A DNA stretch of 64,000 nt, from positions 310,001 to 374,000 of the forward strand of contig JAHDFP010000001.1 of assembly GCA_020628095.1 (NCBI GenBank), read 5' to 3'. The notes beneath the pieces are model-generated. The model did not search any database. It had not been told where the DNA came from and saw nothing but the letters and a program-made list of their open reading frames with translations. Shown piece by piece: positions 1-5,865 of the stretch. This DNA comes from Saprospiraceae bacterium. GTDB taxonomy: Bacteria; Bacteroidota; Bacteroidia; Chitinophagales; Saprospiraceae. Position 1 is the first letter of the stretch; every line of letters begins with the position of its first letter. The translations under genes and the position numbers were made by a program.

Positions 1-151
1 CCTTCGCATCATAAGTATCACTAAACTCCTGAGCCTTAGACATGCTTCTGGAAGCCACCGCATATAGTTCTCCGTCATCTACAAGCTGTAAGTCCTGAGC
101 AAACTTATGTGCTATGTTTCCCAATCCTACAATGCCCCATCTTATTTTCAT
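1..151 (-). CDS. Gfo/Idh/MocA-family oxidoreductase, N-terminal fragment
   Basis: Only the first 50 codons are in the window; the gene runs off the left edge. The start reads [20 protein letters not shown], a Rossmann NAD(P)-binding opening with the G-x-G-x-x-A pattern typical of this dehydrogenase family. It begins 35 bp after the xylA stop on the same strand, so it is probably the third gene of the xylB-xylA unit. A role in oxidising or interconverting a sugar is inferred from that position only; the substrate cannot be read from the fragment. The family call is fairly safe. Confidence 0.85.
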
Positions 152-186: not shown

Positions 187-1500
187 TTAGATGTGATCGT
201 TGATAATATTTTCTAGCAACTCTTGCCTTCCGCTTATCTGACTTGGTTCTCCATTTTTATGAGCGATGTTAGCCAGTTGATTGAGTGTCATTTTTTTAGA
301 TTCGAATTTCTTACCGGCTCCCTTGTCGAAAGAGCCATAACGTGTTTTTCTGATTTTCTTATAATCAGAATTTTTTAATATCGACTCTGCCGTGAGTAAG
401 GCCCTAGCAAAAGCGTCCATACCTCCTATGTGTGCATAAAAAACATCCACAAGATCTGTAGAGTTTCTTCTCGTCTTGGCATCAAAATTAATTCCACCGC
501 CCTTGAGTCCACCAGCTTCTAAAAATACAAGCATGGCTTCCGTTAGCTCGTAGAGATCTATCGGAAACTGATCCGTGTCCCAGCCGTTTTGATAATCACC
601 TCTATTGGCATCCATAGAGCCTAAGGCGTTACCGTTTGCCGCTACTTGTAATTCGTGTGCGAATGTATGTGCAGCCAAGGTCGCATGATTGACTTCTATG
701 TTGATTTTGAAATCATCTAACAAATCATACTCTCTTAAAAAACCCAGCACGGTGGCGCAATCAAAATCGTACTGATGCTTAGAAGGTTCCATCGGCTTAG
801 GTTCTATAAAAAAACAACCCTTGAATCCTTGCTTACGTGCGTAGTCCTTTGCCATGTGCAGAAATCTCGCCAGATGCTCCTGCTCTCTTTTCATATCAGT
901 ATTAAGCAAAGACATATACCCTTCTCTACCGCCCCAGAATACATAATTCTCTCCTTTTAGTTTCATCGTTATATCCAGTGCATTTTTGACCTGTGCTCCA
1001 GCGTATGCAACTACGTTAAAGTCTGGATTGGTCGCTGCACCGTTCATATATCTCGGATGGCTAAATAGATTGGCTGTACCCCACAAGACCTTCTTTCCTG
1101 TACCTCTCATTATGCTCTTGAGATAATCCGATACCTCGTCTAATCGCTTCCGAGATGTTTTAAGATCAGGACCCTCTTCTACAAGATCAAAATCATGAAA
1201 ACAATAATAGTCTATACCGATTTTAGTTAGAAACTCTAGTGCCGCATCTGCTTTGGCTTTGGCGCGCTCTATTGGCGTTTTGAAATTGTTCCATGGAAAC
1301 TCCTTAGTTCCTGGTCCAAAAGGATCTCCACCAGTATTAGTAAAAGTATGCCAATAAGCCGCTGCAAACTTGAAATGCTTAGCCATCGTCTTTCCCATAA
1401 CCTTTTTGGTAGGATCATAGTACTTGAAGGCTAAAGGGTTCTTTGATTTTTTGCCTTCGTACTTTATCTTTTTTATGTTCTTGAAATATTCTGTTTTCAA
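187..1500 (-). CDS. xylA: xylose isomerase
   Basis: Converts D-xylose to D-xylulose in the cytoplasm, using two divalent metal ions. The protein has the family blocks FHDFDL (catalytic His102 and Asp105), [19 protein letters not shown] and [13 protein letters not shown]. The open frame extends to a TTG at 1551 inside xylB, and no ATG occurs before codon 52 of that longer frame. I chose the TTG at 1500 because it gives 437 residues and puts the catalytic His/Asp almost at the usual E. coli positions 101/104. The gene lies just downstream of xylB (14 bp gap with this start) and almost certainly shares its transcript. The product is then phosphorylated by XylB and enters the pentose phosphate pathway. 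Confidence 0.96.
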
Positions 1501-1514
1501 TGTTTGTGTATTAT

Positions 1515-3002
1515 TTATGATTTTAAAATTATTTCTAAGTCTTTCTCCCAATCAGAAAATGCCTGAGCATATTCCTCATTCGTATTATTAGGATAGACAC
1601 TCTTGACTATATGATGTCCATTAAAGGCTTCTGATAGTCCATCGTAGACATTGATGGCAATGCCTGCCGCCTTTGCTGCACCGACCGAACCTGTGGTTTC
1701 GATGAGGTCAATGGGACAATTGATCAGATTGCTGATTGTCTGACTGAATACATTGGATTGGAATAAATTATCATTACCCACCTTTAACCTTTGTATATCC
1801 ATGCCTAAGTCAGAAAACATTTTTATACCATAGACAAAAGAAAAAGCAATGCCCTCCAATGCTGCCCTATAAAAATGCGCTCTGGTGTGTCTATTGAATT
1901 GTAAATTTTTGATCTGCGCCCCTGGGTTCTGATTCCCTAACATCCGCTCTGCACCATTACCAAATGGGATAATCCGTATCCCATCTGAGCCTACTGGAAT
2001 ACTCCTTATCATTTCCTCCATCTGGTCATAGGCTACGCCTTCCCGCGCGATCTGTTTTTTCATCCAGGCATACTGTATGCCTGCGCCATTGATACAAAGC
2101 AGTATACCTATGCTTGGGTCTGCTTTGGTATGATTGACATGTGCAAAACCATTGATTCTAGAATCATTGTCATAGATCAGCTTATCAGAGATACCATAGA
2201 CCACTCCAGATGTCCCTCCGGTGGCAGCCACTTCACCTGATTTGAAGACGCCTAGTGATAATGCGTTATTAGGTTGATCTCCAGCCCTATAAGTGACCTT
2301 AGTATGTTTAAATAATCCAAGATCTCGCGCTACTGAATCCAATATTTCTCCCTGCACACTGAACGTGTCAAATACTGGAGGAATCACGGATTCCGTGATA
2401 CCGTAGTAATCTAATAACTTACTAGAGAGTTTATGCTCTTTGAAATTCCAAAATATACCTTCTGACAATCCTGACACCGTCGTATTAACCTCACCAGTTA
2501 GTTTCATGGCAATGTAATCTCCTGGCAACAGAATATGAGCCACCTTATCATAAAGCTGAGGTTCGTTTTCTTTGACCCACTTGAGCTTGGACGCTGTAAA
2601 GTTTCCTGGAGAATTAAGGTAGTTCTCCAGACAATATGATTGACCGACTTCTTGGTTCGCTTTTTCTCCTATTTCTACTGCTCTACTATCACACCAGATT
2701 ATGGCGGGTCGGAGAACATTCTTCTCTTTATCCAATAGAACTAGACCATGCATCTGATAACTTATCCCTATCGCCCCTATTTTGGAATTATCTATACTGA
2801 CCTCGCTCAACATTTTTTTAGTAGCCGCTCTGACATTGGCCCACCAGGTCTCAGGATGCTGCTCGGCCCACCCCTCTTTCTCAGAGATCATATCCATTTC
2901 GACTTCTGGATATCTTTCCGATGCAACAGTTGATTGCGTGTGAGCATCCACAAGAGATACTTTGATGAAAGAGCTTCCTATATCGTAGCCTAATAAAAAC
3001 AT
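1515..3002 (-). CDS. xylB: xylulokinase
   Basis: FGGY-family sugar kinase that phosphorylates D-xylulose with ATP. Its 495 residues match the family length. Visible motifs are the N-terminal phosphate loop [11 protein letters not shown] (residues 5-15), substrate-contact segment [11 protein letters not shown] (81-91), the catalytic aspartate D242 in [10 protein letters not shown], and the C-terminal ATP-binding glycine-rich segment [12 protein letters not shown]. It precedes xylA on the same strand. About 135 bp separate it from an upstream longer paralogue with which it is colinear over the first 250 residues, with about 57 per cent identity by hand count, so the two arose by tandem duplication. 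Substrate assignment rests on the xylA linkage. Confidence 0.95.
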
Positions 3003-3095
3003 TGGTTTATACTGAGTATTCTAAAATAATATTCTGACTGAATTATTATATCGGAACAAATAACGGAAATTATAGGATTATTCAGAAAATAATCT

Positions 3096-3140
3096 ATACG
3101 CCAATTACTCAGCTATGACGTAATAATAATACGCCAATTA
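3096..3140. repeat. Direct repeat pair upstream of xylB
   Basis: The 12-mer ATACGCCAATTA occurs at 3096-3107 and again at 3129-3140, start to start 33 bp apart, about three helical turns. Between the copies lies CTATGACGTAATAA (3113-3126), which resembles a site upstream of the neighbouring kinase-HTH fusion gene (5176-5190). The second copy overlaps the 3' end of that fusion gene. Spacing and position suit an operator for the xylB-xylA unit, but no protein binding can be shown from sequence. Confidence 0.4.
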
Positions 3141-5111
3141 TTCGCCATATATTCTAGATATGCAAGTGGTTAGATTCTGACCTCTATCTATATTTATCTT
3201 CTTTCGTAAGCGATATCTGAGTGTTTCTACACCTCTTACAGACAGACCAATCCGAGATGAGATTTCTTTGGTCGTAAGTTTATTATAGAGAAAATAGATG
3301 AGCTTAAGGTCTTGATAAGTAAGCAATGGATATGACCTTTTGAAAAATAAAACGACATCGCTATCGTAAAGCGCCTCTTGGTCCTCCACACTCTTTCCGT
3401 TAGGTTTATTTCTTTTGATCAGCGCCTCTATTTTAGACAACTTATTGATAATGGCTGGCGTATTCGTGTCCCCTTGTTCGGTATTTAATATGTTGGCGAT
3501 GGTATTGATAAGAGTGTCTCTTTCGTTCAGTCTCAGGCTCTTGTTTTCCAGTTTTCTTGTTTTGGATTCTAACTTTTTTTTGAGATTGATGTAATCCTCG
3601 TTTTTCTTTTGGTCAGAGGAAGCAGTTCTGGTCAACACATTCTTCAAATTATTAGACCAAAAATCATAAGCCTTAGAGCAGGAGGCATAATCCAGACTGG
3701 GTTGATACACATCATCATAGCTTACAGATTGTAAAGCTTCCTCCAGAGAGTTATAACGACCTGACCCCACCCCAGCCGCTCTTGCTGCACCCACCGCACC
3801 CGTCGTATTGACCAGCTCTATATCCATATCCAGCAAGGTGGCAATGGTCTCCGAAAAGACCTTGGACTGAAACATATTATCATTAGCCACTTTGAGGCGA
3901 TTAATTTCCAAACCCATTTCTTTCATCATATTAATACCATATACGAAAGAAAAAGCAATGCCCTCCAGCGATGCTCTGAATAAATGTGCTCTAGAGTGCC
4001 GATTAAACTCTAAATTGAAAATGTGAGATTCTACATTGGCATTATCAAACATCCTCTCCGCCCCATTACCAAAGGGCAAAATGCAAATACCTTCGGACCC
4101 GACAGACACGCTTTGGACCATTCTCTCCATATCTTTATAAGCCCGGCCCATACGTGCAATTTGGTTTTTCATCCACGCGTACTGGATACCCGCGCCATTT
4201 ATACATAAGAGCAATCCCAGCTTAGAATAATCCTCTTCGTAGTTGACATGAGCAAAAGCATTGACTCTGGATTGCTTATCATACATCAGATGATCCACGA
4301 CACCATATACCACGCCAGAGGTACCGCTAGTTGCTGCTACCTCTCCATTATTGAGCACATTAAGGGACATGGCATTATTAGGTTGGTCACCCGCCCTATA
4401 GCTAATCGGAGTCCCCGAGACTAAGCCACTTTCTGAGGCTGCTTCTGGAGATACTTCTCCCATTATATCAAAGGTGCCCTTTACTGGAGGAATAATTCCC
4501 TCATCTAACTCGAAATAATCCAGTATCTCGTGGGCAAGCTTTTTATTTTTGAAATTCCAAAATATCCCCTCTGTCAGGCCTAATATACTTGTACAAATCT
4601 CCCCAGAAAAGCGCATGGCAATGTACTCACCAGGCAACAATATCTTGTCTATCCGCTGGTAGATATCGGGTTCGTTATCTTTTATCCACTTGAGCTTGGA
4701 AGCCGTAAAATTTCCTGGAGAATTGAGATAATTATTCAGACAGTAGTTAATGCCCAGATCACTAAATGCAGTGTTCCCTATTGATACAGCCCTACTATCA
4801 CACCAAATAATAGACGGTCTAAGCACATTCTTATAGGCATCTATCAGCACTAATCCATGCATCTGATAAGATATACCTATGGATGTAATCATGTCTGGCT
4901 TTACTCCCGTAGACTCCAAAATTTTTCGTGTGGCCTTACACACATTTTTCCACCATAATTCTGGTTGTTGCTCAGCCCATCCCTTTTGTCTAGATATGAT
5001 CTCCATTTCCGCTGCGGGATGCTGAGTGATTCCGACGACCTCATGAGAGGAAAGGTGTACCAGAGCCACTTTTATATGAGAACTACCTATGTCGTATCCT
5101 ATGGAGTACAT
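3138..5111 (-). CDS. Xylulokinase-like protein fused to coiled coil and LuxR-type HTH
   Basis: The 657-residue protein has two parts. Residues 1 to about 497 are a complete FGGY kinase: phosphate loop GYDIGSSHIKV at 5-15, [11 protein letters not shown] at 81-91, catalytic D242 in [10 protein letters not shown], and the glycine-rich C-terminal segment TTGAVGAARAAG. Residues about 503-545 are charged and heptad-like (KKKLESKTRKLENKSLRL), a probable coiled coil. Residues about 592-657 look like a LuxR/GerE DNA-binding domain, with recognition region TTKEISSRIGLSVRGVETLR at 613-632 and a following helix RYRLRKKI. It is transcribed toward xylB. Inference: a regulator of the xyl genes that senses xylulose or ATP through the kinase fold. 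The kinase may still be active because the catalytic Asp is kept. I know of no characterised protein with this architecture. Confidence 0.88.
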   Translation of the reverse strand: MYSIGYDIGSSHIKVALVHLSSHEVVGITQHPAAEMEIISRQKGWAEQQPELWWKNVCKATRKILESTGVKPDMITSIGISYQMHGLVLIDAYKNVLRPSIIWCDSRAVSIGNTAFSDLGINYCLNNYLNSPGNFTASKLKWIKDNEPDIYQRIDKILLPGEYIAMRFSGEICTSILGLTEGIFWNFKNKKLAHEILDYFELDEGIIPPVKGTFDIMGEVSPEAASESGLVSGTPISYRAGDQPNNAMSLNVLNNGEVAATSGTSGVVYGVVDHLMYDKQSRVNAFAHVNYEEDYSKLGLLLCINGAGIQYAWMKNQIARMGRAYKDMERMVQSVSVGSEGICILPFGNGAERMFDNANVESHIFNLEFNRHSRAHLFRASLEGIAFSFVYGINMMKEMGLEINRLKVANDNMFQSKVFSETIATLLDMDIELVNTTGAVGAARAAGVGSGRYNSLEEALQSVSYDDVYQPSLDYASCSKAYDFWSNNLKNVLTRTASSDQKKNEDYINLKKKLESKTRKLENKSLRLNERDTLINTIANILNTEQGDTNTPAIINKLSKIEALIKRNKPNGKSVEDQEALYDSDVVLFFKRSYPLLTYQDLKLIYFLYNKLTTKEISSRIGLSVRGVETLRYRLRKKINIDRGQNLTTCISRIYGE

Positions 5112-5175
5112 TACGTCAAATATACATCGACGTGCGAAATATACTTTGATTAGCTAATTTTGTAATATGAAACGT

Positions 5176-5190
5176 CTATGACGCAAATAA
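5176..5190. promoter_or_regulatory. Candidate operator upstream of the kinase-HTH fusion gene
   Basis: CTATGACGCAAATAA at 5176-5190 resembles CTATGACGTAATAA at 3113-3126, upstream of xylB: an identical CTATGACG core followed by an A/T-rich AATAA. Both lie 5' of minus-strand genes of the xylose locus, about 65 bp and 110 bp from the respective start codons. This would fit a shared site for the fused HTH protein, that is autoregulation plus xylB control. The similarity is short and could be chance. Confidence 0.35.
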
Positions 5191-5262
5191 TTAAGACCTA
5201 CTAGGGGATGATTATAATATTGCAAATGCCTCTTAATCAGTCTTTTACAAAAAGATAAACAT

Positions 5263-5865
5263 ATGAAAAATATTTTATTCCTAGCGATAATCTCTTTCTC
5301 GTTAATTCAGTGTAAATCAGAAGAGAAACCTGTAGTACAAGCAGCATCAAGCCAGCTAACACATCCAGCAAGTGGAAAAACAAATCATCCCAATCACAAA
5401 GCCACCAGTAGCATCAAAAGAGATGTAGGTAAACCAACGATCAACCAATTAGTGACTGGAGATCTCACTTGGACCACATTCGATGATATCGCGGCTCGTG
5501 ATATGAAATCGAATAAGAAAAAATTCTTGGTCGATGTCTATACTGACTGGTGTGGATGGTGTAAGGTAATGGACAAGAAAACCTTTACGGACCCTGAAGT
5601 AATTGAGTATCTGGAAGAAAACTTCCACGTGGTAAAATTTAATGCCGAGAGCCGATCACCAGTAACATTTAAAGGAAGAAAATACGAGTGGCAATCTGGT
5701 GGAAGAAATGGTATAAATCAACTAGCCATTGAGTTATTAGGCAAGAGAATGTCTTATCCCACAATGGTCTATCTAGATGAGGATATGAATAAAATCAAAA
5801 GCATTCCAGGTTTCAAAAAGCCCTTGGAACTATTGGCTGAGTTAAAATCTATTAACCAAATCTGA
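5263..5865 (+). CDS. Thioredoxin-fold lipoprotein
   Basis: A 200-residue exported protein. The N-terminus MKNILFLAIISFSLIQCKSE ends in a lipobox with Cys17, so it is predicted to be lipid-anchored. After a low-complexity linker rich in Ser, Thr and His, the thioredoxin-like domain starts near residue 70 and carries a CGWC redox pair in TDWCGWCKVMDKKTF, followed by the cis-proline region RMSYPTMVYLD. This is the thioredoxin_7/DUF255-like type seen in Bacteroidota. It probably reduces or oxidises envelope protein thiols; the partner is unknown. It is transcribed divergently from the kinase-HTH fusion gene and followed after 67 bp by another exported protein. Confidence 0.85.
   Translation: MKNILFLAIISFSLIQCKSEEKPVVQAASSQLTHPASGKTNHPNHKATSSIKRDVGKPTINQLVTGDLTWTTFDDIAARDMKSNKKKFLVDVYTDWCGWCKVMDKKTFTDPEVIEYLEENFHVVKFNAESRSPVTFKGRKYEWQSGGRNGINQLAIELLGKRMSYPTMVYLDEDMNKIKSIPGFKKPLELLAELKSINQI

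Follow-up and report, generated by a model that had tools for sequence, protein, structure and literature searches.

A likely xylulose-responsive regulator of xylan and xylose genes in Saprospiraceae: an FGGY xylulokinase fused to a LuxR/GerE-type helix-turn-helix

The window (the whole stretch of DNA analysed, 64,000 nucleotides from a Saprospiraceae bacterium) was found to carry a xyl gene cluster on its minus strand, the first gene of which is a single ORF with an ATG start that stays open for 657 codons (Table 1). The order of genes that follows in this genome is xylB, xylA, a Gfo/Idh oxidoreductase gene, an MFS sugar transporter gene and a gene for a GH43 enzyme. A thioredoxin-like gene (positions 5263-5865, plus strand; named by eye from its WCGWC motif) is divergent from the first gene, and the operator predicted below lies in the upstream gap common to the two.

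Table 1. Features of the fusion locus, in positions of the window
Feature	Position	Strand	Basis and remarks
FGGY xylulokinase–helical linker–LuxR/GerE-type HTH fusion	3138..5111	-	657 aa; open frame, Pfam, 33 further fusions of the same architecture
Kinase part, residues 1-494; D7, M84, H85, D242 and GTSG 263-266 intact	3630..5111	-	XylB alignment, Pfam, motif comparison, xylulose-kinase fold in model
Helical linker, residues 495-585, possible coiled coil (low confidence)	3357..3629	-	Model helix 475-543, weak heptad test
LuxR/GerE-type HTH, residues 586-657	3141..3356	-	Sub-threshold Pfam match, modelled fold, Foldseek
Predicted operator CGATGTA-TATT-TGACGTA directly before fusion start codon; contains TATATTTG (-7-like)	5112..5129	-	Repeat comparison
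Half-site TGGCGTA between fusion and xylB	3130..3136	-	Sequence comparison
Half-site TGGCGTA, 33 bp after the first	3097..3103	-	Sequence comparison
Promoter-like TTTGT, 43 bp after start of last half-site, as in relatives	3056..3060	-	Spacing in relatives
xylB, separate xylulokinase	1515..3002	-	ORF, alignment, domain search
xylA, xylose isomerase (named by eye)	187..1551	-	Homologues align from about residue 20; true start probably further in
Gfo/Idh/MocA oxidoreductase, start only	1..151	-	Cluster continues beyond window to MFS sugar transporter and GH43 (L099)

A Pfam search of the ORF product identified FGGY_N at residues 2-244 (E 4.4e-46) and FGGY_C at residues 259-448 (E 1.7e-10), both above the cut-off, bearing out the complete FGGY kinase domain with Asp242 that a sequence-only reading of this DNA had described. 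D242 aligns with the position that we take to be the catalytic Asp of E. coli XylB. The colinearity with the adjacent XylB noted in that reading, at about 57% identity over the first 250 residues, was found to extend over the whole kinase part, with 278 of 493 positions identical (56%) and no gaps. The full-length model shows a xylulose-kinase fold, with PDB entries 3ifr, 5vm1 and 2itm as top matches, and the scores of the fusion and of the neighbouring XylB against the NCBI XylB equivalog (291 and 304 bits respectively) are both below its cut-off of 380 bits. Residues D7, M84, H85 and D242 and the GTSG motif are kept in all 32 fusions first examined, the window copy among them.

Beyond the kinase part, the last kinase helix continues in the model as one long helix over residues 475-543, with a pLDDT of 42-67 past residue 490. 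The coiled coil proposed earlier for this region is weakly supported, by this low-confidence helix and by a crude heptad test that was significant in just 21% of the 34 fusion tails. At the C-terminus, sub-threshold Pfam matches to GerE (PF00196; residues 598-645) and Sigma70_r4_2 (residues 609-639) were identified, the former scoring 17.2 bits with the whole protein and 20.1 bits with the tail alone against a cut-off of 23.5, which was passed by two of eight other fusions scanned (L067, 24.8; L060, 24.3). The C-terminal 88 residues were modelled at a pLDDT of 87, and the first 25 Foldseek PDB matches of the modelled HTH were all regulators of the LuxR/NarL/FixJ/GerE type (VpsT, FixJ, LiaR, GerE, DosR, ComA and others), with TMt values of approximately 0.7-0.86 against isolated HTH entries and no E-value below 0.001. 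The LuxR/GerE-like HTH of the sequence-only reading appears to be real, even though the window copy lies below the Pfam cut-off and the E-values for its fold are weak; the profile search of residues 590-657 suggested there did find the GerE match, at the sub-threshold score given above. No match to the ROK domain was returned by Pfam for the fusion, and the HTH is C-terminal, as had been said in setting the protein apart from ROK regulators.

The fusions analysed here were selected for having an HTH, and universal retention of the HTH among them is for this reason no evidence of its importance. Judged by dN/dS, purifying selection acts on the HTH in the two most readable pairs of fusions. The closest pair (G214/G128) gave values of 0.048 for the kinase, 0.088 for the linker and 0.081 for the HTH, while the pair G004/G002, in which dS is high, gave kinase and HTH values of 0.045 and 0.007; the remaining three pairs had saturated or almost saturated synonymous sites. 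Twelve matches to the tail were fetched and ten of these were scanned by domain search, revealing the linker-HTH region at the end of two REC response-regulator proteins (including L244:932-1894 of the window's own genome), five TPR proteins (of which four match a MalT-like TPR) and two Reg_prop/Y_Y_Y propeller proteins, the remaining one being a fragment with weak matches only. The joining of this region to a sugar kinase is consistent with an exchange of sensors on an output module. In genome G077, a free-standing 177-aa copy of the linker-HTH (L068:8012-8545, minus strand; GerE 31.2 bits, above the cut-off) lies directly after the fusion gene and is possibly a split or competing regulator.

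Full-length fusions were identified in 31 of 398 sampled Saprospiraceae genomes, the window's own included, among the matches listed, the list extending well below fusion scores; the carriers belong to 21 genera by count of genus codes. A 32nd Saprospiraceae fusion (G142) is cut by a contig end and was left out of the count. The window's genus has the fusion in five of 14 genomes (G000-G013) and a second family, f22, in two of 13. Among 395 genomes sampled across the class it was found only in the window's genome and in G624 of f22, and among 395 sampled across the phylum only in the window's own. Searching contigs of named genomes gave at least one further fusion, in the cultured Reichenbachiella versicolor DC003, so that the 34 fusions analysed comprise 31 from Saprospiraceae, two from f22 and that of R. 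versicolor. A frame joined from two genes by an assembly error, raised earlier as a way in which the fusion could be spurious, is excluded by these 34 copies in separate genomes, one of them a cultured organism.

In a tree of the kinase domain the 34 fusions group as a single clade separate from 84 XylBs (SH-aLRT 99; root not inferred), 40 of the 74 available extra XylBs having been drawn at random for it, and an earlier tree of 32 fusions and 42 XylBs likewise placed the fusions in one clade (SH-aLRT 98). Across 21 genomes with both proteins, 196 of 210 genome pairs show higher identity for the fusion kinase than for XylB (mean identity 65.5% versus 59.7%). Because the fusions form one clade apart from the XylBs, the duplication and domain capture look like a single, old event on these sequence comparisons, and the local tandem duplication beside xylB proposed in the sequence-only reading, in the sense of a recent event, was rejected, with the reservation that both trees are read here without an inferred root.

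The linkage of this architecture to xylA, which had been put forward for checking across relatives, was observed at 17 of 33 fusion loci, with SusC found at 14, SusD at 12, GH3 at 11, xylB at 10 and a sodium:solute symporter at nine; genes of GH10, GH67, GH43 and GH26-like enzymes also occur near fusions. These counts cover up to six genes on each side of the fusion, with some loci cut by contig ends and domains scanned in representatives. At 94 xylB loci of fusion-less genomes, many with short flanks, the regulator near xylB was of GntR type in 18, LacI type in 11 and NrtR type in five, whereas the 33 fusion loci have one regulator of LacI type and none of GntR or NrtR type. In R. versicolor, an AraC-type HTH gene (L110:7222-7878, minus strand) lies between the fusion and xylB and may be another regulator of that operon. 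Two other recurrent proteins were observed. One, of approximately 985 aa (L055:14679-17633, minus strand), is conserved with relatives in five other xylan loci, and Pfam (E 0.001) finds only a type IX secretion tail in it; the other, an FG-GAP/UnbV-ASPIC protein of approximately 1,100 aa (L067:518-3937, minus strand, and relatives, L251:4046-7375), recurs near SusCD at fusion-linked loci.

The gaps flanking the fusion genes were found to contain an 11-bp direct repeat, TGACGTA-N4-TGACGTA. With at most one mismatch, and with gaps shorter than 40 bp excluded, 11 of 25 upstream gaps carry it, as do 13 of 29 downstream gaps and none of the dinucleotide shuffles (20 per gap). With at most two mismatches and gene ends included, it is present upstream of 18, downstream of 21 and at either flank of 25 of the 34 fusions, and six positions are invariant among the 39 sites at fusion flanks. 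In 16 of 18 cases the upstream repeat has its first base 16-38 positions ahead of the start codon; the upstream repeat of R. versicolor overlaps the ATG of its fusion. Among the nine fusions that have no repeat at either flank, six are situated mid-operon (the sole-kinase lineage described below), two (G099 and G811) have the repeat before xylB and one (G289) has none. The predicted operator of the window ends at the base immediately preceding the fusion ATG and is the only match with at most two mismatches in the 64 kb. Of two binding sites suggested in the sequence-only reading, that at 5170-5195 contains no repeat and was discarded as an operator; that at 3096-3140 does hold the two half-sites listed in Table 1, but the fusion-xylB gap of the window has no canonical repeat, its best match having three mismatches.

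Where the repeat precedes operons of xylB, SusC or GH genes, its distance to a promoter-like TTTG box is fixed. At 21 downstream promoters, 17 have a further half-site, TGHAGT, that begins 43-44 bp from the first base of the repeat (shuffle mean 0.03, maximum one of 21), and TTTGT begins at 86-88 from the repeat start in 15 (shuffle mean 0.39, maximum three of 21), the shuffles being of the same stretches over 300 rounds. The half-sites of this downstream array lie near 0, 11, 33 and 44, and the TTTG box of xylB and SusC promoters follows 42-44 bp after the start of the last half-site. The sigma-A -7 box of flavobacteria is TAnnTTTG, as described in PMC9723704, and the TTTG box of the fusion-linked promoters resembles it.

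Co-occurrence of the repeat with the fusion was examined at xylB and in whole genomes. Within 400 bp of xylB, the repeat (at most two mismatches) was found in 12 of 22 fusion genomes and at none of 91 fusion-less loci (three rows, L012, L100 and L112, having been dropped), the Fisher p value of 1.3e-10 overstating independence, as many of the fusion-less loci come from other families. The window's own xylB, with three mismatches, is among the 10 of 22 that have no such repeat. Whole genomes searched with at most one mismatch gave 42 sites in 24 fusion genomes, with 28 at the fusion/xyl locus, and seven in 24 fusion-less genomes; a reversed control pattern gave 30 and 25 respectively. All 12 perfect repeats of the fusion genomes lie at the fusion/xyl locus, and the one perfect repeat of the fusion-less genomes is inside an ORF. 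The window's own genome has no site with at most one mismatch. Among 96 supposedly fusion-less loci, the single match at that threshold (L111) has coordinates that match those of a fusion genome, G362. Matches with two mismatches were at background genome-wide, among the matches listed, and a genome-wide regulon built on them was dropped. Away from the locus there are 14 sites with at most one mismatch in the 24 fusion genomes, nine of which were fetched, together with one from a fusion-less genome, and the promoter geometry was checked for six of the nine. A distant GH26-GH3 operon in G194 is preceded by the full half-site array and is likely, from this arrangement, to be a regulon member in trans. 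The array is absent from the repeat between a SusC gene and an UnbV-type gene in G077 and from that beside a gene with a secretion tail in G130, and no trace of it was seen at the other sites where geometry was checked, such as rplL-rpoB in G191; some sites lie inside ORFs. In G099, the 18-mer TTACGTAAATATGAGGTA is present in at least 24 copies on many contigs, often near contig ends, and is probably part of a repeated mobile element.

Two branches of the family bear on whether the kinase part is still an enzyme. In six genomes that form one subclade (G001, G002, G004, G006, G212 and G266; SH-aLRT 100; completeness 86-100%), the fusion lies directly before xylA and was the only strong match to a XylB query, the next matches, in three of the six, being glycerol kinases (E 1.6e-16 or weaker). 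Because a xylose isomerase is present and the fusion is the only xylulokinase found, it is very probably catalytically active in this lineage. In two of the three genomes of this lineage in which the region was covered, the repeat stands at the front of the operon, 143 bp (G004) and 137 bp (G212) before SusC; in the third, G006, none with up to three mismatches was found before SusC. In R. versicolor, judged at the 69 kinase columns that do not vary among the other 76 rows, the fusion departs at D7Q, G9S, T264E and N412D, with G263A in addition, and keeps M84, H85 and D242, while its own XylB nearby departs at none of the 69. These changes lie in or near what we take to be the ATP-phosphate motifs of FGGY kinases, and the R. 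versicolor fusion is probably a pure sensor (a pseudokinase), judging from these residues. The fusion of G811, with a separate XylB downstream, has T261I, G263D, S10N and S11A, so that kinase motifs are intact in 32 of 34 fusions; departures from invariant columns elsewhere are single (G438S in G184, I102V in G323, L140I in G212) or double (A46S and C104S in G099). The sequence-only reading had treated the protein as a mere sensor, which does not agree with the motifs kept in the 32 fusions first examined or with the six genomes. It had also left open xylulose or the ATP state as the signal; the sugar appears the likelier of the two, because R. versicolor has lost the ATP motifs and retains sugar-site residues and repeats.

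Taken together, the fusion is likely to be a one-component transcription regulator with a xylulokinase-domain sensor (a trigger enzyme) that would respond to xylulose, activate xylan and xylose genes and repress itself. Control of the xyl genes through the kinase fold, as first proposed from the window, accords with the place of the fusion at the head of the cluster, the predicted operator at its own start and the half-sites before xylB. The sequences themselves show the architecture, the single clade, the conserved motifs, the gene neighbourhoods and the co-occurrence and geometry of the repeat; from these we infer the binding of the repeat by the fusion, the effector, the direction of control and catalysis, also for the window copy. 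In the proposed mechanism, D-xylulose produced by XylA would fill the sugar pocket of the FGGY fold, and closure of the kinase lobes would be relayed through the C-terminal helix to two paired LuxR-type HTHs; this pair would bind the 11-bp direct repeats and be shifted on the tandem half-sites by xylulose binding. Bound upstream of xylB-xylA, SusCD and xylanase/xylosidase operons, the fusion would activate them, as suggested by the position of the repeat well upstream of the TTTG box at xylB and SusC promoters, and bound over its own start it would limit its own synthesis, as suggested by a repeat that covers a TAnnTTTG-like box beside the start codon. The kinase would still work in most lineages, be the sole xylulokinase in one and serve as a pseudokinase sensor in R. 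versicolor.

Other explanations were weighed against this. Were the fusion simply a second xylulokinase carrying the HTH as a passenger of no regulatory role, intact motifs in 32 of 34 copies and the six genomes with no other xylulokinase found would be expected; purifying selection on the HTH in the two clearest pairs (dS high in the second), its retention in R. versicolor despite mutated ATP motifs and a repeat that tracks the fusion gene make this highly improbable. It is also improbable, if less so, that the repeat is the site of a different regulator and that the fusion, while itself regulatory, binds elsewhere or acts through a partner. The sampled Bacteroidota genomes hold many related LuxR-type HTH proteins, one of which could bind the repeat, an AraC-type gene adjoins the R. 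versicolor fusion and the second promoter of the window is degenerate; set against these are the confinement of the 12 perfect repeats of fusion genomes to the fusion/xyl locus, the 91 fusion-less xylB upstream regions with no repeat and the 18 of 34 fusion genes that have the repeat ahead of their own start.

More weight, while still doubtful, can be given to a fusion that represses the catabolic operons until relieved by xylulose, following classical ROK/LacI logic. Many sugar regulators are repressors, and the repeat at the window's own gene shares bases with a TAnnTTTG-like box and runs up to the start codon; however, a last half-site 42-44 bp upstream of the TTTG box at xylB and SusC promoters is in the usual position for an activator. 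Rather unlikely, to a similar degree, is a window copy that is an inactive kinase acting only as a sensor, with a working XylB next door. R. versicolor and in part G811, both with XylB present, have taken this route, and residue 262, which precedes GTSG, is S or C in 32 fusions versus G or A in 42 XylBs, but E. coli XylB itself has Leu at the aligned position and the phosphate and catalytic residues examined in the window copy are intact.

The fusion shares with XylB the FGGY kinase domain, the catalytic residues and the place beside xylA, and differs from it in the additional helical linker and HTH of approximately 160 aa and in its separate clade. Its C-terminal output module is that of LuxR/GerE-type one-component and response regulators of Bacteroidota, in which the sensor is a REC, TPR or propeller domain and not a sugar kinase. 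Enzyme-derived regulators are already known. ROK regulators, such as the Gram-positive XylR, also use a sugar-kinase-derived sensor for xylose genes, but with an N-terminal winged helix, usually no kinase activity and a different kinase family, the HTH of the fusion being C-terminal. NadR of enterobacteria combines a kinase and a repressor of NAD metabolism in one chain, as the fusion may, with unrelated domains and the HTH at the other end (N-terminal). In yeast, the galactokinase Gal1 is also an inducer and its paralogue Gal3 a pure sensor; these have the GHMP fold, act through Gal80 and have no DNA-binding domain, whereas the fusion, which likewise has a probable pure-sensor relative, has one on an FGGY fold. 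The NrtR/Nudix-family XylR of Bacteroides (BT0791), which regulates the xylRBAE operon, is a further regulator with an enzyme-like sensor, in its case Nudix, according to PMC3878776. Near xylB, NrtR-type genes were found at five of 94 fusion-less loci and at none of 33 fusion loci. A literature search of incomplete coverage, by which absence is not proven, returned no description of an FGGY sugar kinase with a DNA-binding domain.

In its strongest form, about as likely as not, the interpretation would have a single protein in one Saprospiraceae lineage serve as sole xylulokinase and at once as master activator of a whole xylan-to-xylulose operon (SusC-SusD to xylA), its catalytic cycle being the signal, while in R. 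versicolor loss of the ATP site would have left a pure xylulose sensor. If true, bacteria would have, within one chain, a counterpart of the Gal1/Gal3 split. The fusion family offers a predicted operator, promoters of fixed geometry and, in its sole-kinase and pseudokinase lineages, two natural experiments, which would make the transition from metabolic kinase to transcription factor directly testable, in xylan degraders that are relevant to carbon cycling.
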